Source: Porphyra umbilicalis
Lineage: Eukaryota; Rhodophyta; Bangiophyceae; Bangiales; Bangiaceae
NCBI GenBank assembly: GCA_002049455.2
Contig: KV918807.1
Location: 1-64,000, forward strand
Length of the DNA stretch: 64,000 nt
Direction of reading: 5' to 3'
In this document: positions 10,151 through 64,000 of the stretch, in pieces
How positions within the stretch are numbered: the stretch's first letter is position 1
Layout: each line of letters begins with the position of its first letter
Program-made: the position numbers and the translations under genes
Notes under the pieces: generated by a model
The model's database searches: none
What the model was told of the DNA's origin: nothing
Seen by the model: only the letters and a program-made list of their open reading frames with translations

Positions 10151-13100
10151 TCACCGCCTGAGCCACCGGTGGTCCACGTGCCGGTAGGCGCCAAAGCGGC
10201 AGCTGGCGTCCACAACCTCGGCGCGTGCCGTCCACCGGCTGACGCGGGCGAGCGCAATGTCGAGGACCGACTGGCGGTCCTCCACGAGCAACTCGATGCG
10301 GTCATTTATGGGCACGTCGTAGGGGTTGACGGGCTCTTCCTCCCCCTCGTCCGTGTAGTCGACCGAAGGGGGGAGCGTCGACGACGCATACGAAGAGGAG
10401 GAATACCAGGAGGCGGAGGCGGAGGAGGAGGACGACGATGCCGAGCGCGAGCGCCGGCGGCGGGCGCCGTCGACTTCAGTCCGCCGCCCGCGGGGCGTCG
10501 GCGACGAGGCCGGAGCGCCGAGCGAAAAGTTCTCGAGGGCGGCCATGTGGGCCTCGGCGGGGGCGGCCGCGGCGTCGCCGCCGGCAGACACATCCAGGCG
10601 CGGCTCGGAAACGGCCTCCTCCCCTGAAAACAGCGCGTCAATGATCAGCGCGCCCGCCGGCAGCAGCGCCGGCGACGAGAGCTTCTCGTGCAGCAAGTTG
10701 ATCGCGCCCGCCAACCCCGACCGGTCGACAATCGACACGCGCACGGTGCCGTGCAGCAACACCCCCGGCCCGTGGACGATGCGCCGCCGCCGGCGGCTGC
10801 TGCGAACCATAACGACGAGCGACATGTAGGGAAGCTTGGAGAGCGTCTCTGCGGCTTGCGACACCTTAACATACGACCCGTCCGGGTCGTGGTCGCGTCC
10901 GTCGTGGCTGCTCAGGGAGAGTGCCTCGCGGGAGTGGGAGAGAGCGTACGGCGGCTCGTCGGCGATGAATTCGAGGACGAGCAGTCGCGCCATGGACCGT
11001 GCCAGCTCCGCACGAAAGTAGGGATGCTCCCGGCACAGCTGCTGCAGCGGCTCGAGGGGCAGCCAAAAGACAGTCGCCGACGAGGCAATCTCACACGCGC
11101 TAAACTTGAGCAGCTTGAGCGAGTACATGAGCATCTGCGCGTCGGGCGACGTTTCAGACAGGCCGAGCAGCGCAATGCCCGACGTCGGCCCGCAAAAGAC
11201 GCTGTGCACGGGGAAGCACCAATGCATCGTGCAGCCGGTGGACAGCTGCAAGCTCCGCCGCCCGTCGCCAAGGCTGCCGAAGGAGCCCCGCCCCGGGGGG
11301 TCGTCCATGGATCCCCGCAGGGGCGTGCTGCCCTCCGACCCCTCGCCGTCGACGTGCTCGTCGGAGAGGGACGACCGAACCGAGGCACCATAGGTCGTCT
11401 CGCCGAGCTCCGCGTAAAAGTTAATGACGGCCTCCTTGGCAGCGTCGTAATCCACATCACTGGCCGCCGGCGTGCTGTCTGCGCCCGAGCCCGACGGGCC
11501 ACCGGTGGTGCTGTTGGTGGTCGACGCGGAGATCTCATCCTCGTCCACGTCGGCCGCCGGTGCTGCAGCCGCGGGCGTGCTGTTGCCGGCCGTGTCGGCC
11601 GGCCCGTCAGAGGACGGCAAGACGCCCGACGAGTGGCCGGCGTCGGCCTCGTCCGGTGGCACGTTGAGATGGAAGCCCTTGGGCTTGGGGGACTTGGCGC
11701 CATCGCGGTCGCCTGCCGACAGCGCCGCCGACGCCGCCACGCGTGCCATGGCCGACGGCCCGTCCTCGTCAGAGCCCGACGCGACCGCCTCCGCCTCCGT
11801 CGCCCGTACAAAGTGCCCGTGCCGGTGCGACGGGATGCCCGCCTTGTCTAGCCGCTTCCGCAGCAGCTGCGACCGGCGGTGTGCCATGATGGAAGCGGAC
11901 CCGATGCGCAGCGCCCCGTCAAGGACAAGCATGAAGGAGGAGCCCTCTGGGGGTACCGACTGACGTGGGGAGAGCTGTTGGATGTGGCCAGTCTTGCGGA
12001 CGAGCCGAGAAAAGGTTGCGTCGTCGAGGGGCCCAAAGAAGGGCGACTGCCGCAACACGTCATGCGGGTTAACGACGCCGGGTCGGCGGAAGCGGTCGTT
12101 CCACAAGAAGTAGGTGCACCGCTGCTCGATGAGCTCCTCGCTCAGCTTGTCAAACTCGGACCCGTCGACGGCGCCCGATTGGCGGAGGTCGTCCAACGTG
12201 CCAGTCTGCTTGGTGTAACACAGACGCACAGCCGCGTCGGTTTGGACTTGCGCAAAGACGCGGCCGTCGAGCGTCTCGAGCCGGTTGAGGTAGGTGACCA
12301 CGTTTTCGTACAGGCGCTCCACCTCTTGGGCGACCAGCGGGGACTCGAGGAGCCACTCCTCTTTGAGCACCTCCACGATAGAGCTGGCGAGCACGTTGGC
12401 GACGGCGATGGAGCCCTCCACGTTGCTCTTCCCGAGCAACCCCTGGGCTTTTTTGAATGCATGCCGTAGAGGGGTCTTGTGAAGCAGCGCCGCAAGGTTG
12501 CCGAGTTTGGACTTGTGCAGGAAGACAAACAGCTGGTGTGGGCGCCCTTCGTCATTAGCATCCATGGCCTTAAAGATGTCCTCGGAGAGAGCGGCGAGGG
12601 ACCCGAGCTCCACCACGTTGACGTTGAATCCCGTGCGCACGTGGGCGAGCATGGACGTCAGGACGCGGCGGCGGACTTCCCGGTCCAAATCCGTACCGAC
12701 TTGACCGATGTCCGCTTCCCGCCGCAAGTCGCGGAACATGACGTTGGGCGCCCGGTACACATACGAGGACGTTGTCGCGGAGGACGGGCGCGGCGCGTGG
12801 AACCTGCGGGCGCCGTCAGCTGCCGGGGCGCTCGACGTGTCCACCCCACCACTGGACGACGCGCCGGGCTCCGTCGACGACCCGCTGGCGCCCCCCCCAG
12901 GGGCGGCCCCAGTGGTCGCCGCTCGGCCGCCACTGTCGCCGCCACCACCCGTCGCCGTCCCCGCGGCGTCAGAGGGCTTGCTCCGGTAGCTCCGCCAGTG
13001 GGAGAAGCGGCCCTTGTGCTTCTCCTCCACCGGACGGATCGTCGGGATGAGCAGCGGGCTGCTGCTCGACAGCCGCGGCGACGGCGGCACGGAGCCATGC

Positions 13101-15067
13101 GCGAGGCTCAACCGCGGCGTCGCGTCCCATCCCCGCGGTCGCTCTGTTGACCGCTGGTCGTTGCGGTCGAGGGAGCCCCGCTCGGCGGCACCCGGCGGCG
13201 GCGATCGAGGCGGCGTCCGCCACGGCTGCTGCACCGAGTCGCGGCGGCTGCTGCCCGGGTCGATGCTCATCCGGCGGCCCGCGTGGTGGATGTCCATAGA
13301 CCGCCGCATGTCCGACTGGAGGCCTGACAGGCTCGTCCGCCCCGGGTGGAGGTCGAGGGAGGCTCGCATGTAGTTTTCGGCAACGTCACCATCCGTCCAA
13401 CACTTGGGGATGACGTTGTCCCGCACGTACGACCAGCGGGCGCTCTTGAAGAACCCGTCAATGACGATCGAGTCGAGGATCTGGTACGTCTTTTGCTGCA
13501 TAAGCGCGCGCGCGCGCGCCAGAAAGTCGGCCTTGGTCGGGTCTGGCTTGTTGAGTCCGAGCCACGACAGCGCGGGGCTGATGGCGAGGCCATTGACGAG
13601 CAGCGACAGCGCGACGACGCCGGTCGTCCACAAGACCACCCGAGAGCGCACCTCGTCCGGGACCGTCTCGGACTCGCCAACCTCGAGCGCAAGGATGAGC
13701 GACACGGCGCCGCGGAGGCCCGACAGGCTGACGACAATCGCTTGGCGCCATGTGTACCACTTTTGGCGCCACGCCAGAGCCGGGTGGAAGATACCCAGCA
13801 GCGCAAAGCGGAGAACCTGCAGGAAGGCAAAGTAGGCGAGGATAAACAGGTAGTCCTGCCACTCGTGCGGGACGCCCGCGCAAGACCAGGAGAAGGCCGT
13901 CACGAGCACCCCCGAGTAGACAAACACAATGGTGTTGGCCATCCACCCGAGGAGCTCCCAAAAGTGGGCAAGCGGCTCCCGCGCAGAGGGGGTGATGAGG
14001 GCCTTGCCGAGCGAAGATAACAGCAGCCCCGACGTCACGTTGCAGATGACACCCGAGAGGCGGGCCGGCGACTGAGCCGTCCAAAAGCCGAGAAAGGCGG
14101 TGATGAGGGTGATGGACGTCTCAACCTCAAACATCTCGCACACGAGGGCGAGGCCGACGAGAGCGACCAAGCCAAATGCCAGCCCCATCGCCACGCCACC
14201 GAGGGAGAGGCGGATCAGCTCAACGATAATCTCGCCAGTCGACAACTGCACTCCGTCGACGCGTGCGTTGGTGAAAAAGGCCTCAAACAGCACAAATGCC
14301 GAGCCGTCGTTGATGAGGCTCTCCCCCTCGATGAGCACGTTGAGGTACTCGCTGGCGCCGACCGACTTGAGCGTCGCCGTCACGGAGATGGGGTCCGTCG
14401 CGGAGAGCATCGACCCAAACATGAGCGCAGACCACCAGGTCCACCCCGGCGTCTGGATGACCAGCTTCTGAAAGGCGCCGACCGCAAACACCTGCAGGAT
14501 GACAATGACAAAAGCGAGCAAGCAGATGGGCCGGAAGAGCCGCTTGAAGATGTGCCACTCGGTGTTGAAGGCCGCCTCAAAGATGAGCGGCGCGAGAAAT
14601 ACAAAGAAAAAGGTGTTGGGCGGGCTGAGGTGCACCCACTGCCGGAGCGATGTTGTCAAGAGGCCGAGGTCCACCGCGCAGCCGAGGACGCCCAGCAGGG
14701 CGCCGAGCACCAGCAGCATCAGCGTGTAGGGGAAGCGGATGATGCGCGTCATTGGCTGCGCGATAACCCCGAGCAGCAGCGCAATCAGGGGAAAGATGAT
14801 GACGGTGAAGTCGCGCTTGCAGTCCGCGTCGCACTCCCCGTTGGGCACCGCCAGGAGGCACGAGGAGGGCGTCTGCCGGTTGCACAGGGCGCCAAAGATG
14901 ACCTCCCCATTCTCACCAACGGCGGCCGACGCGCGGGAGACGGGGCCGGGCGTGACCGCCGCGACAGCCGCTTCGGCGATGGCGTCCACGGCGGCGCCGG
15001 CGGCAATGTCCATGGCGGCCAAACCGCCCGCGTGCAGGTGGCCCGACACAGGGGGGGGGGGTGACAT
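10151..15067 (-). CDS. SOS1: SOS1/NHX7-type plasma-membrane Na+/H+ antiporter
   Basis: Intronless, 1638 aa from the ATG at 15067. An in-frame extension upstream has no ATG and looks like leader. Residues about 85-505 form a CPA1 exchanger with roughly 12 membrane segments: FTVIIFPLIALLLGVIAQ, then FFFVFLAPLIFEAAFNTEWH, the ion-site pair in SATDPISVTATLKSVGASEY and IEGESLINDGSAFVLFEAFF, and SLSGLRGAVSLILALEVGE. A cytosolic tail of over 1100 aa follows, with an acidic/Ser-rich linker. It includes a cyclic-nucleotide-binding-like segment (VLRQSPFFGPLDDATFSRLV, then SFMLVLDGALRIGSASI). Long tail plus CNB-like domain is the plant SOS1/NHX7/8 architecture; the family exports Na+ using the H+ gradient. 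A marine intertidal alga would need this. Ser-rich stretches such as RRDSVQQ and RRMSID are possible kinase sites, by inference only. Confidence 0.9.
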   Translation of the reverse strand: MSPPPPVSGHLHAGGLAAMDIAAGAAVDAIAEAAVAAVTPGPVSRASAAVGENGEVIFGALCNRQTPSSCLLAVPNGECDADCKRDFTVIIFPLIALLLGVIAQPMTRIIRFPYTLMLLVLGALLGVLGCAVDLGLLTTSLRQWVHLSPPNTFFFVFLAPLIFEAAFNTEWHIFKRLFRPICLLAFVIVILQVFAVGAFQKLVIQTPGWTWWSALMFGSMLSATDPISVTATLKSVGASEYLNVLIEGESLINDGSAFVLFEAFFTNARVDGVQLSTGEIIVELIRLSLGGVAMGLAFGLVALVGLALVCEMFEVETSITLITAFLGFWTAQSPARLSGVICNVTSGLLLSSLGKALITPSAREPLAHFWELLGWMANTIVFVYSGVLVTAFSWSCAGVPHEWQDYLFILAYFAFLQVLRFALLGIFHPALAWRQKWYTWRQAIVVSLSGLRGAVSLILALEVGESETVPDEVRSRVVLWTTGVVALSLLVNGLAISPALSWLGLNKPDPTKADFLARARALMQQKTYQILDSIVIDGFFKSARWSYVRDNVIPKCWTDGDVAENYMRASLDLHPGRTSLSGLQSDMRRSMDIHHAGRRMSIDPGSSRRDSVQQPWRTPPRSPPPGAAERGSLDRNDQRSTERPRGWDATPRLSLAHGSVPPSPRLSSSSPLLIPTIRPVEEKHKGRFSHWRSYRSKPSDAAGTATGGGGDSGGRAATTGAAPGGGASGSSTEPGASSSGGVDTSSAPAADGARRFHAPRPSSATTSSYVYRAPNVMFRDLRREADIGQVGTDLDREVRRRVLTSMLAHVRTGFNVNVVELGSLAALSEDIFKAMDANDEGRPHQLFVFLHKSKLGNLAALLHKTPLRHAFKKAQGLLGKSNVEGSIAVANVLASSIVEVLKEEWLLESPLVAQEVERLYENVVTYLNRLETLDGRVFAQVQTDAAVRLCYTKQTGTLDDLRQSGAVDGSEFDKLSEELIEQRCTYFLWNDRFRRPGVVNPHDVLRQSPFFGPLDDATFSRLVRKTGHIQQLSPRQSVPPEGSSFMLVLDGALRIGSASIMAHRRSQLLRKRLDKAGIPSHRHGHFVRATEAEAVASGSDEDGPSAMARVAASAALSAGDRDGAKSPKPKGFHLNVPPDEADAGHSSGVLPSSDGPADTAGNSTPAAAAPAADVDEDEISASTTNSTTGGPSGSGADSTPAASDVDYDAAKEAVINFYAELGETTYGASVRSSLSDEHVDGEGSEGSTPLRGSMDDPPGRGSFGSLGDGRRSLQLSTGCTMHWCFPVHSVFCGPTSGIALLGLSETSPDAQMLMYSLKLLKFSACEIASSATVFWLPLEPLQQLCREHPYFRAELARSMARLLVLEFIADEPPYALSHSREALSLSSHDGRDHDPDGSYVKVSQAAETLSKLPYMSLVVMVRSSRRRRRIVHGPGVLLHGTVRVSIVDRSGLAGAINLLHEKLSSPALLPAGALIIDALFSGEEAVSEPRLDVSAGGDAAAAPAEAHMAALENFSLGAPASSPTPRGRRTEVDGARRRRSRSASSSSSSASASWYSSSSYASSTLPPSVDYTDEGEEEPVNPYDVPINDRIELLVEDRQSVLDIALARVSRWTARAEVVDASCRFGAYRHVDHRWLRR

Positions 15068-16161
15068 AAAAGTGGAGGGTGGCGGGGGGGGGGGGGGGCA
15101 GCGCGACACTCGCGGTGCGTCTTGAGGAGGGGAGGGGGTTGTATAGCCGGCAACCAGAAAATAGCGGCCGCGACAACCCCCTGCCGGATACTGTACCAGT
15201 TGGTCGGGCGGCCGGCGCGCCGCCGGCCTGGCCCAGACGGCAACGGCGGCGCGGTGCACGCCCCCCCCCCCCCCCTGAGGTCAATCCGCTGCGCCGGTAG
15301 AAGTCGGAGAGTGCAACGAAGCCGCCGCCCGCCGCGCCCAAACGCCAACGGGCAGCGGCAGCGCCCCCGTGAGTCGACTGCTTGCGGCGGGGTGGCGCAA
15401 CGCCGCCCTCGGAGAACGCACTGTTCCCCGGCGTGTCGACGATGCCAGCGTCTTCGATTGGGCGCACGAGCACAGCGCACGCGCAGCAATTCCGGTCTGG
15501 GTGGGGCTGCGCCGCGGCACGACGCTCGGACCAAAGCGCCCTGCATGCAATTCTACCCTTCTGCCCCCTCGGGATCGCGGTTTTCAGCACGCGCAAAACC
15601 GACTGAGCGAACCCGTCGTCATGCAAGGCACTCCCAGCCCGGTGTCTGATTGGATGAGACGTTGGCCTGGGAGGAGAGGATTTTCGAGTTTCGAGCAGGA
15701 CCCGGTGTGGCGGGCATCCAGTTGTAGAGCGCCGCACGAAGGGACGGGACCGGCCGTCCGACTGTACGCTGCGCAGCTGTGCGTGGCGTTGCCTGTCCTG
15801 CCCAGTGTCGTGGCGGGTCTGGCTGCATCATGCGAAATCGGGGATCGCACCGTGCGGAGGTCTGCGCGTATGGCACGTAGGCCACCTCGGAGTCTCGTAA
15901 GGGAGTGACGGCGGCGGCGGAGGGATCGTGGACACAGAGAATGTCGGGACCCTGGTTTTTTGATGACGGGAGGGCTAATCGTCGACGACCTGCCTGAACG
16001 GAGAGGAGCCAGAGAGGCCACTGGGGAGGACGCCCGCTACGTTTGTTCTTCTTGCGTTCAAAATCCAGAAATCCATTCGAGCGGGGCGCACACAGTGACA
16101 GAATATTCACAATCCGCGCTGGCCCTACGGCACCCGATCTGTGCCCTGGTCCCCCCCACCA
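15068..16161. other. Intergenic upstream of the antiporter gene
   Basis: Contains the antiporter promoter and leader, with G-runs at 15051-15060 and 15079-15098. No other gene, RNA gene or repeat was recognised. Confidence 0.35.
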
Positions 16162-17157: not shown

Positions 17158-17920
17158 GGCGCGGATTGACTGCTGCACCTGGTGCGATTGTCAGCGCTGT
17201 TGCATGCCCCTGTCCTCCACGCTTCGCGCAAGCCCATAGCCAACACGTCGCGTCAGCCAGCAGTCTCTCTGACTGCTCGGCCGCCATGTCAGTAGCCGCA
17301 CGCCGTATTTACGGGAGTTGGTCGTCTGTTCTCGTCGCCCGCCGGCATGCGCACCACGTGTCGACTGAACAGCCCGCCTTCTCTGCTGTCGAGGCATATC
17401 ACCTGCCCGGTTCAACGTCTCACAGCACGGGCAGAGTAGGGGTTCGGTGCGTCGGTCTGATGAGCTCTGGAATCGGAGGACTTTATATCCTACCCCTGTC
17501 TGAGGCTGCGAGCCTCACGTGGAGTGCGCGGTGCGTGTCCAGCCAAGACAAAAAACGTGCAGGAGCTTGACAGGACACCTACAGACCAGCTGCGGTCGAG
17601 GACCCCCGCCCACAAAAAAAAGAAAAAAACGGGCAGCGACGGATACGGCGGCTCGACACGCCGTGGTCTAACAAGCAACCCCGGGGCCACGCGCAGCAGT
17701 CCGCAGCACCTGCGGCAATACACCCATACACTGGCCCCCACAGGCCGGGCGCCACCCGCCGTCTAGCACATCCGCCATTGCTGGCGCCGCCACCCAACCC
17801 ACGCGGCTCTTCCAGCCCTCCTCCCGCGGGCGCGGGCCCGCGCCCGCCCGCCCGACATACCGCATACCTCCGCCTGGCCGCAACCTGCGCCGTCGCACCC
17901 CCCACCCCCCTTCTACACTT
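17158..17920. other. Intergenic, 3' of the repeat-protein gene
   Basis: No gene recognised. The A-run at 17614-17627 and the moderately GC-rich flank are probably 3' untranslated DNA of the minus-strand gene ending at 17921. Confidence 0.3.
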
Positions 17921-18803
17921 CTACTCACTCGTCCCCGGCACCTCCCCCTCCCGCCCCCCCCCCCCCCCCCCCTCCCCCCGGCGGCCGCTTGGCAGCCGGC
18001 AAGCTCCCTCCACCCCCCCATGCGCGGGACTCCAAAACGGCGCCCCCGCCGGACTCATCCCCCGCGACCGTGCCGCGAGGTTGTCCCCGTGGCGCCCCCC
18101 CACCGGGGGCGCACCCGCGCCCGCCCGCGGCGGCCCGCCGCGGCGGGCAGGCGCAAAAAAGGAGCCGCCGGCCGGCGACATGCCCCGTGTGCGCGTCGCA
18201 AGGCGGTGGTCCCCCCCCCGGACGGCACCTTGCCCGCTGCCGCGGCGGCGGCGCGGGCGGCCACCACCGCCGCCGCGGTGGGGGTGCCCGCCCCCGGGCG
18301 GGCGGGCCCGCCGCGGTGGCCCGGCCCAAAAAAGGGTGCGCCGGCAGGGGACCACCCCGCCCCGCGGGCGGCGAGGTTGACCCCGACGTGTGTCGGCGCC
18401 TGGGGGGTGCCCGCCCCGGGGCGGGCGGGCGGCGGCAGGTGGCGGGGACCGTAAAAGGGGGCGCCGCGGGGCGACCAGCCAGTCACCCGCAAACGCGTCG
18501 GGCGCGTCATGAGGGGGAGCGGCGCCTCGGCGGGCGCGCCGGCGCGGCGCGTCGCCGCTGCGAGCGCGGCAGCGGTGGCGGCGGCGGCTGCGCGGCGCGA
18601 CACGGAAGCTGGGCCGTAAAAGGGGCGGCCGAGCGGCGAGTAGCCGCGGTGGCCGCCCGAGGAGGGCGCCTTGGCAGCCGAGGGCGGGGGGGGGGGGGGT
18701 CTGCCGATGCCCGTAGGGGCGGGGGGGGGGTCCGGCGCGCGCGCGTCGGCAGGCGAGGAGCCAAGCCGCAGACGCCCAGCGGCGGCGTCGGGACGAAGGC
18801 CAT
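17921..18803 (-). CDS. Plastid-targeted, disordered [W/Y/M]SP-repeat protein (candidate Rubisco linker)
   Basis: No family recognised. The ATG at 18803 begins MAFVPTPPLGVCGLAPRLPT, a good red-algal-style transit peptide. After a C14 run (18686-18699 on the plus strand), where the frame must change, come five copies of a sticker: GYSPLGRPFYGP (18645-18610), GWSPRGAPFYGP (18480-18445), GWSPAGAPFFGP (18357-18322), GMSPAGGSFFAP (18184-18149) and GMSPAGAPFWSP (18061-18026). A second frame change falls in the C9 run at 18211-18219. Start-to-start spacing is about 55, 41, 58 and 41 residues. Linkers are Ala/Pro/Gly/Arg-rich and themselves conserved (P-A-R-x-GAG-T/A-P; NLAAR before copies 3 and 5). 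About 293 aa, basic, no predicted fold. The pattern resembles multivalent Rubisco linkers, especially the W-S-P stickers reported for diatom PYCO1. That function is inference only; a cell-wall or scaffold protein is the alternative. Confidence 0.6.
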
Positions 18804-19875
18804 GGCGGCGCGACGCGGGTGGCGGTGGGAAGAGGGGGACGTCACCGACGCCGACAAAGGCACGCGGGGTCTGGGGGATCAGGGAGGCACGTCGGTTTGA
18901 CAGTGGGGAACGGGGGAGGTCCGCAGAGGTCGGCACGACTGTCGATCCGTGAGGGGGGATGGCGGCGCAGCAGCCCGGCACCAAGCGGGTCTCTTATCCT
19001 CTTGCGCCGCCGCCACACCCGCCGCGAGGCGCCCGCGGCGGGGCGCGCCAGCGTGAGCGCGCTCGTGCAGCCGCGCTGCATCCCTGCCGTGGCGACGCGA
19101 GCGGTGGCTCGGACGCCGGCGGCGCACCGCCTACGTGGCTCCCCCGATGCACCCAGCGGATGCTCGGCCGCCCACAGGTGGCCGTCGGTTCGATCATCTG
19201 GGAGATTCAAAGTTCCACGCCCGTCCCCTGGCCTCCTGCTCGTCGTGGCGGCGACCTGTGGCGCCCTGCTTCCACTCCCACAGCCGCCGTGGAGGCGCCA
19301 GCCCGGCGCTGCGGTCGCGCCCAAGCTGCAGCCGAAGAGCGTATTGCTGCACGCTATCGGGCGGCCGGCACCAGCTGGCACTGCAGTGGGGCGGGGGGAG
19401 GTCACCGAACCTGGGGGCGGTTGTGGCGCGGACAGCTCGAATGCAATGTCGGCCTGTGCTGCGAGCTTCTTCCACTGGCGTTGGGATTTTGGGTGGCGTG
19501 GGACACAAGTAGACCACACTCGAGGAGACGTATCTCAGGCGTCGAGATACTTGGAATCTAGGGTTCTTGGCCAATGGGCACACGTTCAGGAGATTCCACA
19601 CAGCAATGACTCATACGACAGAATTCTGAAATGTAATCAATACAAATGGTAATCGTTCAGTAGATCCATTGCGAAACAGAACAAATCGGGCTGGATCAAT
19701 TGCAATACCAGAAGTAGGTCACCTGTGGTCAGGATCGCTTAGTGATCGCGCCCATGTCCATCGCTTCCACCGCCACCACCACCATCACCACCGTCCCGCC
19801 AGCTCGAACTCGCCAAGCCGTCGAACCCGCCACCTCCGTGACGCTGCATCGACGCCAACCTGCGCAGGCATCACC
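18804..19875. other. Divergent intergenic region
   Basis: Lies between the repeat-protein gene (minus) and the glutathione peroxidase gene (plus), so it probably contains both promoters. It is GC-rich to about 19480, then AT-richer at 19540-19740. No convincing ORF or RNA gene was seen. Confidence 0.35.
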
Positions 19876-21072
19876 ATGGGTGCATTTGTGGCGGCCCCAT
19901 TGGGGCTACTGGCCTGCAGTAGCGGTGGCCTGGGGCCTGGCCCGGTGCGGCTGTCTCGCCGCCGGCAGACTGGCGCGACGGTGCCACCTCGGACGGGGCG
20001 CGTCGCCGCGGCACGGCCGGCGGTCCTCCCATCCATGGTCGCTTCCGGGCCTGACGGAGACTTCTCTCGTCGTGCGTTTGTGGCCGCCGCCGCCGCTTCG
20101 GCCGCAGCGGCCGCGCTGAGCGACCTGCCTGTCACGGCAACGGCGGCGACAGCGGCGGCGCCGTCCACCTTTTTTGACCTCACCGCCACCCGCGGTGGAG
20201 AGCCGACGCCCCTGCGCGACCTATTTGACGACAAAGTGACGCTCGTTGTCAATGTGGCGACCTACTGCGCGCTGACCCCGCAGTACGAGGGCCTCGTCGC
20301 TCTGCACCGCACATTCGCGGCGGGCGGGGAGGGAAAGGCCGGGTTTGACATTGCCGCGTTCCCGTGCAACCAGGTGCGTTTCGTTGACGGACCACAGGTG
20401 TCGATTAGAGTGGATATTTGCGGCGAGCTACTGCGGTGCGTTTTTCGTTGTGTACTGACAGTGCGTTCTGTTGTCTTTTGCATGTTGACCGCTTCTTGTG
20501 TGCCTTCGGATACCACTGACTGCGTGATACGTCGCCCTGCACAGTTTGGTGGTCAAGAACCAGGTACGTGCTGTTTGAGGGAGAGCAGTATGCCTGTCAT
20601 GCTTCATCTGCGCTGATTTTTCTCCCGTCTGTTCTTGTGTGCACTTCGATGACCAGACGGCTGACTAACGAACATGTGTTCTCTATCGACGTCTTGTGCA
20701 TTGACTGCATCGCTCCCCATCTCGGCGCGACCGTGTCCGTTGCCTGTTTGCATCGACACCATGGCAGGCACGTACCAAGAGATTTGCAAGTTTGCCCAGG
20801 AAAAGTTTGGCGCCACCTTCACGCTCTTCGACCCCATCAACGTCAACGGCCCACAGACGCACCCGGTGTACCAGTGGCTCAAAGCCAACAACCCCGAAGA
20901 TAGCAAGCGCATTGAGTGGAACTTTGCAAAGTTCCTGGTCGACCGCCATGGAAATGTTGTGCGGCGATACAAGCCAGGGGTGCTGCCCGAAATGATTGCT
21001 GGCGACATCTCGGCGCTGGTCGCCGACCGGCCGCTGCCCAAGAAGAAGCGTCCGCAGCTTGGGGTGGAGTAG
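19876..21072 (+). CDS. Glutathione peroxidase-family enzyme with bipartite thylakoid-lumen presequence
   Basis: Three exons: 19876-20373, 20545-20563 (19 nt) and 20768-21072, all GT-AG; 273 aa. The N-terminus MGAFVAAPLGLL is transit-peptide-like. At about residues 61-95, a twin arginine (DFSRRAFVAAAAASAAAAAL) and a hydrophobic stretch ending in A-x-A sites resemble a Tat lumenal-targeting domain. The mature enzyme has NVATYCALTPQY with the catalytic Cys (not selenocysteine), AFPCNQFGGQEPGTYQEICK formed across all three exons, and the IEWNFAKFLVDRHGNVVRRY block with the active-site Trp/Asn. It reduces hydroperoxides; plant-type Cys enzymes mostly use thioredoxin. The KKKRPQLGVE tail is unusual. 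The 19-nt middle exon is remarkable but is fixed by the conserved motif it completes. Confidence 0.9.
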
Positions 21073-52862: not shown

Positions 52863-53493
52863 GTAAGTTCTGTTGTTGTGTAACGTTTGCTCGTGTTGAC
52901 AGGACAAGCACACCAGCGGAGGGTCAACGGGGCTGACGGGGTTCGATAAATTCGTCCTGGGCTGGACGGGCGCAAGACGGACGCGTTGGGCACGCAAAAG
53001 GAACTTACGCTCACCTTTTCCTCCTGTCCACGGCTTCAATCTATTGCATGTCAGCGTGCCACCTGTCCTTTTCGCTGCATCTTGAAACTACACTGTGAAC
53101 AGGGCAACCGCAGCAGACATTGGCGTTGCGTTCAAAGGCACAGTGTGGGCCTACAGTGTGGGCCTATCAATGCGTCGACTGCATGCGGCTCCTCCTCAAA
53201 CCCACAAAAGGGATGCAAGCGTGGCGGGAGTGGGCTCAGTCTCACCCTCCTGGCTCACCTCATGCCGTCGTTGCCAGCCTTCCAGTCATATTGTGCAAAC
53301 AAGGGGCCCAGGTGCTTGGCATGGACGCGTCTGGCACTCCCCGCGGCCGTTGCGGCAAGTGCTATGCCAGGCGCACACGAGCGGCACGTCGCGCGGCGCC
53401 CGCTACACCTGCTACTCCCACCCCCCACCCCCCGCCTCTGCCGGCGTGCAGTCTCGCGTTTGGGGACCCTCTACGTGTCTGGCTTCGAGCACG

Positions 53494-55827
53494 ATGGCTA
53501 CGAGCGCGCCGGTGGTCAGCCTGATGCCTTCAGGGGGCTGCACAGATACTTCTGCATCCGTTGGGAACGCTCGGGTCACGGACGAGCCAGATGACGCGTG
53601 TCATCTACAGGCACGGCAAGAGCGAGGCCGTGCTGCGGCGCCCAAGCCTGGCGAGGCCGCGGACGCGCAGCTGTGTCCCCCGGCCGACCCCCACGAAGGT
53701 GCGCCAGCTGCGACGGGTGGCGCGGAGCCTTTACCCGCTCCGACGCAGGCGGCCGAGCCTGCGGCAATTCCAAGCTGCAAGGATTTCCTTGACTGTCTTG
53801 TGGATGGGAATTACGGCGGGGAGGAGGACAAGTCGGTGCTGGAGGCAATTGCCAACGCAATTTTGCTGCGTGGCAAGCGCCCCCAGATCCGGCTCAAGCA
53901 CACGAATGGACGCGTGGTCGTGTACGCGCGGCAGATGTCGCCGCGGAAGGCTCTGGTCAAGAGCAGTCAAGCTAACAAGCGCCGCGCTGCCGCGCGTAAG
54001 CTGCAGGAAGACACGCGCGGTGGAATGGTGGGGACGAGGCGCGACAGCCCGCGACCCGCCCGTGAGCCCGTGCGGCTCACTGTGGCCGAGCAGGTGGGCC
54101 TGGCAGCGGCCCTGCGACTGAGTCATATCGGGTTCAACCGGTGGCGCTTGGCTCTGGGGGGGCGCCGCAGTGGCTTAGCCAGTTTGTCTGTGCTCCGGGC
54201 CGCGCGGCGGCAGCTCTCTGATTTACCGGGGAAGCAGGTCATCGTCACGGGCTCGGGCGCCCATCTGGCATCCCTCACTGCGGCCATCCAGGAGAGGGTC
54301 TCGGCTCTGTGTGACGCGGACGCCTTCGTCGAGAGACCTCTGGCTGACACCCAACGGGAGCCCAGTGGCTCCGCCGGAGCCCCGGCGGTCGCGGTTCTTC
54401 CCGGGTCTCCCTCTCCGTCTGAACTCGACGTGCAGATCACCCTCGGCCTCGACAAAGGAGGCGACCCGGGGACGGTGAAAATTGTGGCAACAATTATTAA
54501 CCAAGCCCACCCCAACAGTCCATCCAACACGATACTGGTGGCCGTTTGCCCCTGCCAGGACGACAAGTACGAGGAGCTTGCGGCAATGCTCGAGACGCAC
54601 CTCCCGCAGGTCGACGCTCTGCTTCGGGATGGGGTGTTGGTGCGCGGTGTGCACCGCCCAGTGCGGCTGCTGCTCGGCAGCGACTACGCAGCGCAGTGCA
54701 ACGTCCTGGGCCACAAGGGTGCGTCTGCGACGCAGCCCTGTCTGGGATGCAAGAGCACGCGGTTTCCGAGTGTCGCGCAGGCCGTACTCGACGATGCCTA
54801 TGGTACCCTCCAAGACGTTGGCACCCGCAGGCACCTGCGAGAGGCAACGCACTTTGCCGATCGGATGGTTGCTGAAGGCGCTGCGGCGGTGGTGGGCGAG
54901 CATGGCACAGCCGAGCACCACTGCTCGGTGGAGCGAAGCCCCCTACTTGCCATCAACCCGCGGCAAATTGTACCAATTCCACTGCATTGCACGCTAGGAA
55001 TTAACTATCGGTATTTGCGGCTTGCTGTTGAGATGGTGATGGTCTTTCGGAGCTCAGCTGACGGCGCTGCTGCTGGGCGACAGGCGGGCGCCAGCTTTGC
55101 CCTCGAGCTTGTTGGCCTGCTGCACGAGAAGGTGCGCGTGCGGCCTACGCCGTACCATGGCGGGCTCTTCATTGGCCGCGACTGTCACACTATTGGGGAC
55201 AGCAGTGCGCTCGTGTGTAACGCGCACAAGGGAAAGGTCTCACAGAGCCACCTTGATGCCTACGAACAGGCGTGGTCGCTGTGGAATCGGGTGCGAAAAA
55301 CCCTTAACCGTGCGTCGATCATCCCCCGCGCTGAGGCCGCGCTCTTTAGGGCGGACACCGCTGCAATGGTGCGCTTGCTGAAGGGAAGCTTTCCTTGGGT
55401 CTCCATCTCACCGAAGTTGCACATCCTGATGTGCCATGCTCCGGCTTTTCTGGAGTCCTTTGGCAGTATCGGGCTGTATGGGGAGCAGGGCTTAGAGGCG
55501 TGGCACGGCCGCTACGGCCAGAGTGCTGTCAAGTACCCCGGTGCCACGGAGCTGGAGCGTGCGGCGGCATTTATGAGGGCTATGGCACTCGCACGAGAGG
55601 CAGGGGCTGATGTGCTTGCGCGCTACGCGCCGCGACGAAAGCCTGCTGTACCGGGGGCCCGCATGGCACGTAAGGTCGGTGACAAGCGGCGGCGGGAGAA
55701 CAAGCCGCAGCTCCCAATTTGTGGGGCAGAGAGCCGAAAAGCCGCGAAGAAGCGCAAGATGTGGGCGGCGGGGATTACCAAGGAGGCGGCTACAACAGTT
55801 GGCGCGCACATGCAGCGCGCCATCTGA
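53494..55827 (+). CDS. Transposase of the 4.1-kb element, DDE-like, family uncertain
   Basis: 777 aa from ATG 53494. The frame is open further upstream to 53095 but without protein character. Candidate catalytic acidic residues lie in TLGLDKGGDPGTVKIV, in RLLLGSDYAAQCNVLGHKGA and in SIGLYGEQGLEAWHGRYGQS. A Cys-x2-Cys (ATQPCLGCKST) and paired His motifs (IPLHCTLGINYRYL, PKLHILMCHAPAFLESFG) lie between and after them. This D-D-E order with an embedded Cys/His cluster suggests an RNase-H-fold transposase related to the KDZ-like or other large eukaryotic families, but I could not assign a superfamily. An N-terminal CKDFLDCLVDGNYGGEEDKS domain precedes it. The C-terminus is basic (KRRRENKPQ, KAAKKRKMW), nuclear-signal-like. 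No internal stops, so probably intact or recently active. Confidence 0.65.
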   Translation: MATSAPVVSLMPSGGCTDTSASVGNARVTDEPDDACHLQARQERGRAAAPKPGEAADAQLCPPADPHEGAPAATGGAEPLPAPTQAAEPAAIPSCKDFLDCLVDGNYGGEEDKSVLEAIANAILLRGKRPQIRLKHTNGRVVVYARQMSPRKALVKSSQANKRRAAARKLQEDTRGGMVGTRRDSPRPAREPVRLTVAEQVGLAAALRLSHIGFNRWRLALGGRRSGLASLSVLRAARRQLSDLPGKQVIVTGSGAHLASLTAAIQERVSALCDADAFVERPLADTQREPSGSAGAPAVAVLPGSPSPSELDVQITLGLDKGGDPGTVKIVATIINQAHPNSPSNTILVAVCPCQDDKYEELAAMLETHLPQVDALLRDGVLVRGVHRPVRLLLGSDYAAQCNVLGHKGASATQPCLGCKSTRFPSVAQAVLDDAYGTLQDVGTRRHLREATHFADRMVAEGAAAVVGEHGTAEHHCSVERSPLLAINPRQIVPIPLHCTLGINYRYLRLAVEMVMVFRSSADGAAAGRQAGASFALELVGLLHEKVRVRPTPYHGGLFIGRDCHTIGDSSALVCNAHKGKVSQSHLDAYEQAWSLWNRVRKTLNRASIIPRAEAALFRADTAAMVRLLKGSFPWVSISPKLHILMCHAPAFLESFGSIGLYGEQGLEAWHGRYGQSAVKYPGATELERAAAFMRAMALAREAGADVLARYAPRRKPAVPGARMARKVGDKRRRENKPQLPICGAESRKAAKKRKMWAAGITKEAATTVGAHMQRAI

Positions 55828-61541: not shown

Positions 61542-63020
61542 CGATTCTCCTTTTGGCGTTCCACTCAGCCAAGAACATGACCTACACGTGCGTGGGCCCT
61601 ACACATTCTGTACAGTATCGGATACATTGAGGGAGGGAGATGGAGACGAGACTCGGGGCGCTTTGGCCCAACCAGAGCTGGCAGCGCAGCTTCGACAATC
61701 GCTGTACGCTCCTCTGTCAAGTTGTTCTATCCACCTCCGTCGTGCCGGTTGGCGGTGCGCCGTCACTGCGCTGCGGCCGGCCGATGCGGACGCACATTAA
61801 GCGGGAGACCCCGCCAACGCCACAAACCGGAGTGCTCCACGTGCCCACGACTTCGTTTTCTCTTTCGCCTCGAAACCATCTCGGAGTCGACGACGTGTCG
61901 GTTCCCTCTCAGTTCCGCTGCGCTTACATCCGCCTGCCCTTCAGCCGGGAGCAGCGTCGGCCACATGCGCGCCCAAACTCATGCGTGCCCATCGGCCCGC
62001 GGCGCTGCCCCTTCCTTCTGCCGCCCGATATCCGGCGGTGCGGGCGGTGCCCAAGCAGTGGCCGGCCGCGGCCGCACCGACGCCGCTCCTGCCTGCCGCC
62101 GCCGCCGTCACGCTTGCCTTGCCGCCTTTCCTCACGAGACACCACGAACGCCCCGCTCTGCACAGAGCGCCCAGCCGACCACGCTCGTCGCGATAAAAAA
62201 AAAAGGCGCCGCTGGATTTGATCAACGCGCCAAAATCAGCACGTTTCTGGCGGCACACGCAAGTCGGCACCGCCGCACGGCGCCGCGCGGGGCCCCTCGT
62301 CAGGACTGCGACAGCCGACCGCGGGCAGAACTAGCTAGAGACGCAGGTGCGCGTAGGCCACGCTTTTCCGCCATTGGCGCTGCGGTCCGTTGTCCTGGCC
62401 TTTTTTTCCGTGGCACAGCCCCGGAGCTGCGCGGCGGCACGGAGGCGAGAAACCCCTCGGCATCCATCCGCCGGCGGTCGCTTTCGATCAGCGCTCTGGG
62501 AGAGCCAATCCCGCCAATCATTGCCATGGCACCTGCAGATGCACGAATGTCCCCTACACGCAGACCACTCGCGGCGCAGAGCGTGTGACTTGACTCCCGC
62601 ACCCGGCCGTTGCGAGCTGGGGCACCCCTCGTGGCTGACACCACCTCCACCAGTTCCACTGTCTTCGGCACCTGATGCCGGGGCGAGGTGCGTGCGTCCT
62701 GTCCATCGCCCCGTGCTCTCCCAACCCTGCTGCCCACGAGGGCTGCTGAGTACGGCGGTTGCCGAGTGGACAGCTTGCTCGCCACGCGCTGCGGGCGGTC
62801 AGCAAGGATGCCGACCGCCCAGACTGCCGACCCGACGGTTCATAAGAGCGTGGGCTTCTGGCGGACCTTGGCTTGCTTTCAACTCCCCAACCACCTGCCT
62901 CATTCGCTGGCTACCCCCCTCTCCCATCACGTTCTTGCCCGTTACCTCTTTCTCTCCTCCGTGGGCACCCCTCCCCCCCTCGCCTTTTGCATCGCTGCTT
63001 CCTCACCCCCTCTACCACCA
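61542..63020. other. Promoter side of flavohemoglobin-like copy 2
   Basis: No gene recognised. The last 100 bases before 63021 are C/T-rich leader (cctccccccctcgcc, ctctaccacc). Confidence 0.35.
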
Positions 63021-64000
63021 TGGGCACCCTGAGCGACGACACGGTGCGCCTCGTTAAGAGCACCGCTCCAGCCCTCAAGGTCCACGGCGGCGCCGTCGTT
63101 GAAGGCTTCTACGCGCTCCTCTTTGAGAAGCACCCCACCGCCGCCGCCTACTTCAACGTCGGCCCGACCGACGGCGCCGGCGGGCGCCGCGGGCAGTCCA
63201 AGGCCCCAATCCAGCGGCTGGGCATGGCCGTCCTCTTCTACGCCGAGTCGATCGACAAGCTCGATACGCTCGGCCCCGTCCTCGAGCGCATCTCGGCCAA
63301 GCACGTGAGCCGCAGCATCCCCAACGAGTTTTACCCGATCATCGGCTCGTGCCTCCTCCAATCCATCGGCACCGTGCTCGGCGAGGCAGCGTCGCCCGCG
63401 GTCATTGGCGCGTGGACAGAGGCGTACGGCTTCCTCGCCGACGCGCTCATGGCGACCGAGGCCAAGATTGCGGCCCGTCTGGCAGCGTCGGCGAGCGGGT
63501 GGACCGGCTATGCGCCGTTTGTGGTGGCATCGGTGACCAAGGAGGCGGTGCCGCCGCCGGGGCGCGCCGCGTCCCTCGTCCTCCGCCCCGCAGGGTGGGC
63601 AGACGGCCGCGCGCCGGTGGCGCCGGCGTGGAAGGCGGGCCACTACGTCGGCCTGCGCGTGCCCGTGCCGGCATCCGCCGGCGGCGGCGACGACGACGCG
63701 GCGGGCGCCGTCACCCGCCGCACCCTTTTTGTCACCTCCCCGCCGGCGGCCGCCGACCTCCGCGTCACGCTCGTTGCTGGCCCAGACGTGCCCGCCGACC
63801 CGGTCGTCGAGGCGCTCATGAACTACACGCCGGGCACGGGCGTGGAGGTCAGCGCGCCGCTCGGTTCCTTTACGTGGGACAGCCCAGTGCTCGGGACGTG
63901 CCTCCCGGACGCGCCGGCGGTCTTTGTCACGTCGGTGCCGGGCCTCCCCGAGGTGGCCACCATGGTGCGGGCGGCGTTGACCGCCGGCCGCGCCGTCACC
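63021..64000 (+). CDS. Flavohemoglobin-like protein, copy 2, partial at window end
   Basis: ATG at 63021 in 'ctaccaccATGG'. 326 codons are present, open at the window edge and unbroken. It is very similar to the gene at 50386-51706: GALSDD/GTLSDD start, STAPALKVHGGAVVEGFYAL, YFNVGPTDG, proximal His in ISAKHVSRSIPNEFYPIIGS, and EAYGFLADALMATEAKIAAR. As in copy 1, the reductase half keeps PAWKAGHYVGLRVPVP but has RRTLFVTS in place of the FAD R-x-Y-S motif, and SVPGLPEVATMV in place of the NAD(P) glycine loop. Because both copies share these changes, the substitutions predate the duplication. Copy 2 has shorter linkers (GGRRGQS rather than poly-Gly) and no frame breaks, so it confirms the reading of copy 1. 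Confidence 0.85.

Follow-up and report, generated by a model that had tools for sequence, protein, structure and literature searches.

Linker proteins are named for Chlamydomonas, diatoms and Chlorella, with a candidate in a chlorarachniophyte, in the available part of one account (PMC13159521). Among them is PYCO1 of Phaeodactylum tricornutum (PDB 7YK5), a protein with six repeats, a pI of 10.03 and the sticker KWSPRGGS, four copies of which fill the central solvent channel of Rubisco (available excerpts of PMC10288592). According to the same excerpts, W476 packs against the GGS of the next sticker, S477 contacts N133 and G137 of the small subunit RbcS, S482 contacts N105, and the W476A substitution abolishes binding (PMC10288592). 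The sticker is described there as absent from other Phaeodactylum proteins except a PYCO1 isoform, and the traits of the PYCO1 family as KWSPR/Q repeats, GTGYNP repeats, a large-subunit helix (AAEWGSMNQ) and prion-like domains (PMC10288592). More generally, the FLIPPer pipeline takes the repeated elements of linkers to be spaced 20-120 residues apart (available part of PMC11570498).

For red algae, the sequence-only reading that preceded this analysis knew of no such linker. None is evident from the titles or abstract openings of the matches listed, which cover few subscription papers or preprints, and the available portions of PMC10473226, PMC12368222, PMC7423979, PMC11740840 and PMC9833100 mention none. 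Cyanidioschyzon, described as pyrenoid-less, yielded no homologue of the Chlamydomonas linker (available part of PMC10154280). Here we consider a locus of Porphyra umbilicalis whose product we propose, tentatively and clearly short of an even chance, as a red-algal pyrenoid Rubisco linker from the primary red lineage, with a bipartite sticker of the form [W/Y/M]SPxG + F[Y/F/W]xP. A linker from a red alga would show whether red algae and diatoms condense form ID Rubisco by a common sticker logic, and pyrenoid engineering would gain one more component. Being small, the candidate lends itself to assays with peptides and purified Rubisco.

Layout and composition of the candidate protein

The candidate gene lies in a window of 64 kb, by which we mean the whole stretch of DNA that was analysed, and is read through three successive minus-strand frames, the first holding the ATG segment (MAFVPTPPLGVCGLAPRLPTRARRTPPPPLRASA), the second stickers 1-3 and the third stickers 4 and 5 (Table 1). 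All five copies of the motif G-[Y/W/M]-S-P-x-G-x-[P/S]-F-[Y/F/W]-x-P that had been reported for this DNA are present on the minus strand (5/5), their S-P parts taking the forms SPLG, SPRG and SPAG, and once the frames are joined their starts fall 55, 41, 58 and 41 residues apart, the spacing claimed. The linkers were likewise said to be conserved, and they contain GAGTP twice, GAGAP once and NLAAR twice. An Ala-rich stretch is common to the two long linkers, and stickers 2-3 with their linker align with stickers 4-5 and theirs as one duplicated unit at 48% identity.

Table 1. Features of the candidate locus and its homopolymer runs (window positions).
Feature	Position	Strand	Remarks
Candidate coding region	17921..18803	minus	ATG at 18803, stop at 17923-17921; two frame breaks to bridge
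N-terminal transit-like segment MAFVPTPPLGVCGLAPRLPTRARRTPPPPLRASA	18700..18803	minus	0 acidic residues; putative plastid targeting
G10 run	18721-18730	plus	Other possible site of the first frame change
G14 run (C14 on minus)	18686..18699	plus	Likely site of the first frame change (N-terminal segment to sticker 1)
Sticker 1 GYSPLGRPFYGP	18610..18645	minus
Long Ala-rich linker after sticker 1	18481..18609	minus
Sticker 2 GWSPRGAPFYGP	18445..18480	minus
Short linker after sticker 2	18358..18444	minus	Contains GAGTP and NLAAR
Sticker 3 GWSPAGAPFFGP	18322..18357	minus
Long Ala-rich linker after sticker 3	18185..18321	minus	Spans the second frame break
C9 run (G9 on minus)	18211..18219	plus	Likely site of the second frame change
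Sticker 4 GMSPAGGSFFAP	18149..18184	minus
Short linker after sticker 4	18062..18148	minus	Contains GAGAP and NLAAR; repeats the linker after sticker 2
Sticker 5 GMSPAGAPFWSP	18026..18061	minus

The joined chain, taken as 277 residues with the C-terminal tail left out, has a pI of 12.0 and a net charge of about +29 at pH 7, with 35 Arg and Lys against 6 acidic residues, and 66% of it is Ala, Pro, Gly or Arg, in line with the basic background described earlier. The C terminus itself is uncertain because of a C19 run at 17954-17972. Thirteen of the 14 aromatic residues (Trp, Tyr, Phe) are located inside the stickers. Its composition suggests that the chain could be disordered; on the charge-hydropathy plot it lies just across the boundary into ordered territory (H 0.463, boundary 0.451), and its mean TOP-IDP value is 0.215. 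The transit-like start, MAFVPTP, is indeed present, beginning at 18803, and opens a segment free of acidic residues. Judging from this N terminus, the protein may be imported into the plastid.

Relatives of the protein were sought in its own genome (83.8 Mb, 665 contigs) with the whole chain and four sticker peptides as queries, the best candidates being scored. Among these best-scoring candidates, the sticker queries recovered the candidate locus and three weak matches, all judged to be chance: C194 (E 0.092) shares SPAG and HRGGPxRP and misses both aromatic parts, C278 (E 0.228) covers the N-terminal segment only, and C114 (E 0.324) has no S-P. No Pfam family scored above its cut-off (DUF3772, 14.1 against 25 bits), NCBIfam gave no match for the protein, and no relative was above noise among solved structures (best E 0.98, ribosomal protein S10). 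Two scans each of bacterial, archaeal and viral contigs likewise yielded no relatives; these collections are not intended to contain algae and hence do not bear on conservation.

As for the surroundings of the locus, a Pfam scan of seven chosen open frames in the window matched several neighbours, none of which has a direct link to carbon concentration. A glutathione peroxidase gene (19878-21072, plus strand) is divergent from the candidate gene; the Pfam match covers its first part only, the remainder, by eye, seems to occupy another exon around 20762-21072, and its N terminus combines a plastid-like start (MGAFVAAPLG) with a twin-arginine-like SRRAFVAAAA. A Na/H exchanger is encoded at 10154-15280 on the minus strand in a frame of 1709 residues, the exchanger domain spanning residues 168-573 and being followed by a very long C-terminal region in which Pfam matched nothing. 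A biotin carboxylase is also among the neighbours, as are a globin-domain frame that runs to the window end (62846-63999, plus strand; E 1.2e-12) and a 913-residue DUF1280 frame (53086-55824, plus strand; 26.9 against a cut-off of 25 bits), which is perhaps a mobile element.

Host Rubisco and possible partners of the stickers

The product of this nuclear gene would be synthesized in the cytosol and taken up into the plastid stroma. It would be a very basic protein of low complexity in which five aromatic stickers, 41-58 residues apart in an Ala/Pro/Gly/Arg chain, would repeatedly bind one partner. As partner, the alga's own form ID Rubisco would be the most likely. Within the sticker, the [W/Y/M]-S-P-x-G-[A/G/R]-[P/S] half would lie close to the small subunits that surround the central solvent channel, like KWSPRGGS of PYCO1, with the F-[Y/F/W]-x-P half providing a further hydrophobic contact. 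With five stickers on each chain and eight small subunits on each Rubisco, such binding could cross-link the two into a pyrenoid-matrix condensate. The identity that we favor on the evidence of the sequence, at not far short of an even chance, is that of a multivalent scaffold in the stroma, with the linking of Rubisco as its most likely role.

That red algae carry form ID Rubisco had been part of the original argument, and the assembly bears this out for the present alga: on its plastid contig (185,000 bases) rbcL, rbcS and a cbbX-like gene adjoin one another, which is the red-type arrangement. The last of these we take to be cbbX-like from its sequence. When the host RbcS is aligned with chain I of 7YK5, N105 is kept, N133 is replaced by Lys132 and G137 by Ala136, so that one of the two side-chain contacts of PYCO1 is kept (N105) and the other is changed (N133). 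In the seven other chains with alignments shown, residue 105 is Asn five times; 8bdb has Tyr, which we do not read as a pyrenoid-related difference, and 1bxn has Asp. With Asn in most of them, its retention in the host is weak evidence. The proposal of a Rubisco-condensing scaffold, with which the sequence-only reading had concluded, comes through in part: the probable gene, its layout, the transit-like N terminus, the basic charge, the form ID genes and the overlap with KWSPRGGS speak for it, whereas Trp in only two of the five stickers, Pro at the Ser482 place in four and Lys for N133 in RbcS speak against it.

The same anatomy favors multivalent binding while naming no partner, and the protein could instead be a plastid-targeted multivalent scaffold for a complex other than Rubisco, for instance the phycobilisome, the thylakoid or another stromal assembly. 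The absence of the PYCO1 tryptophan from three of the five stickers and the partial retention of the PYCO1 contacts on RbcS fit such a scaffold, which we nevertheless regard as rather unlikely, given that form ID Rubisco has a known sticker with which the motif overlaps and that the solved chains, with nothing above noise, point to no alternative partner.

Less probable still is a role in compacting plastid or nuclear chromatin, in which a basic, linker-histone-like Ala/Pro/Arg protein would touch DNA through its S-P motifs. The pI of 12, the excess of Arg and Lys over acidic residues and the Ala-rich linkers would suit such a factor, which may resemble histone H1 with its SPKK motifs. However, the motifs here are SPLG, SPRG and SPAG rather than SPKK, the aromatic residues are concentrated, all but one, within 12-residue stickers, and no Pfam family is recognized in the protein, all of which make this role improbable.

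Reading frames and signs of selection

The Rubisco linker proposed above presupposes a protein-coding gene, and the sticker copies carry marks of selection on protein. Over the ten pairs among the five stickers, codon-position differences number 28 at first, 37 at second and 68 at third positions, and pN/pS between copies is 0.46; shuffling the columns gives a median of 1.07 and a value as low in only 3 of 2000 cases. The sticker Ser is preserved across TCG, TCC and AGT codons. One antisense frame has a comparable pN/pS (0.301/0.559), and therefore the test by itself leaves the strand unfixed. Codon usage bears on the strand as well: with a score trained on 1191 codons from neighboring genes, the claimed frame ranked top of six in all three segments compared (claimed against next-best frame, 0.0 against -5.0, 11.0 against -2.0, and 0.2 against -4.6 in segments 1-3), although the scores of the first and last segments are near zero and their support is therefore only relative. 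Since the sticker copies differ mostly at silent positions and codon usage is best in the claimed frame, the locus is probably a real gene. It likely encodes a plastid-targeted, multivalent protein built of stickers and spacers.

Two frame breaks interrupt this gene in the assembly. From the ATG to sticker 1 there are 158 bases and from sticker 3 to sticker 4 there are 173; either distance leaves a remainder of 2 when divided by 3. Long C/G runs are prone to miscounting, and as both stretches are one base short (or two over) and both hold C/G runs, the breaks suggest miscounted runs in the assembly. The window at large contains 49 C/G homopolymer runs of at least 12 bases, 31 of them of at least 14. 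Splicing was considered as another source of the breaks. Between stickers 3 and 4 (18321-18185) none of the six length-compatible candidate introns is of the GT-AG type, all six being GC-AG, and a spliced intron was rejected as the cause of the second break. Before sticker 1, one of eight candidates is a GT-AG intron (18773-18670, 104 bases) that would restore the frame and yield an alternative N terminus lacking the Arg-rich part.

The two frame changes can also be taken at face value, as true mutations in a gene that has decayed or was never functional, its repeats being relics; that no second copy turned up among the best-scoring candidates of the own-genome protein searches would be in keeping with this. 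Such decay has a low probability in our view, because both distances leave the same remainder with C/G runs (14 and 10; 9) inside each stretch, silent changes predominate among the sticker copies on either side of the second break, and on either side of each break the claimed frame outscores the other five in codon usage. Finally, that the frames are an accident in DNA of about 80% G+C is highly improbable, even though the window often has long frames open in several overlapping registers, since the strict motif, a pattern composed after its copies had been seen, occurs five times in the six frames of the window and in none of 40 simulated order-2 Markov windows (mean 0.0), and a loose version occurs five times against a mean of 0.125 in such windows.

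Comparison with PYCO1, EPYC1 and CsLinker

PYCO1 was picked as comparator post hoc, after the motif had been seen. As far as the available excerpts describe it, it shares with the candidate the character of a basic repeat protein with several short stickers containing W-S-P-x-G, and it acts on form ID Rubisco, the genes for which are also present in the host of the candidate (PMC10288592). The stickers of both are unevenly spaced (PMC10288592, in part). At the level of residues, the Ser477 and Gly480 places of PYCO1 hold Ser and Gly in all five candidate stickers, whereas the Ser482 place holds Ser in one and Pro in four. The Trp described as essential in PYCO1 is found in two of the five, with Tyr in one and Met in two, and the candidate sticker continues into a further aromatic half, F-[Y/F/W]-x-P, which is missing from the PYCO1 sticker as printed (PMC10288592, in part). 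The best match to KWSPRGGS covers five of the eight places (stickers 2 and 4), a level that column-order shuffles of the stickers attain 218 times in 20000 (119 of 20000 for the summed score). Whole-protein shuffles also reach it in 90 of 3000 cases, so that the likeness is weak by itself, and the resemblance of the stickers to KWSPRGGS is suggestive only. A query with the printed PYCO1 peptides found no PYCO1 chain in the PDB list. If the proposal is true, the overlap with PYCO1 would mean that a WSP-type sticker for form ID Rubisco either existed before the secondary red plastids did or evolved on two occasions, each time on the same surface of the small subunit.

As regards family membership, KWSP does not occur in the three minus-strand frames of the candidate region, nor do GTGYNP or AAEW in those of 17901-18900. 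With two defining features of the PYCO1 family sought and neither present, the candidate falls outside it.

EPYC1 of Chlamydomonas, compared here by description, similarly has five stickers and a positive charge, and its chain, described as mostly disordered, cross-links Rubisco (PMC10288592, in part); its stickers, unlike the short motifs of the candidate, are helices that bind two helices of the green-type small subunit. CsLinker of Chlorella, also compared by description, has in common with the candidate the general linker design and the 20-120 residue repeat spacing, and it binds the large subunit of green-type Rubisco (available part of PMC11570498). The 41-58 residue spacing of the candidate stickers falls inside that range, and its positive charge likewise fits the linker class. 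If Rubisco is indeed the partner, the candidate, which by its sequence is not a member of the PYCO1 family, would nonetheless work like EPYC1 and PYCO1.
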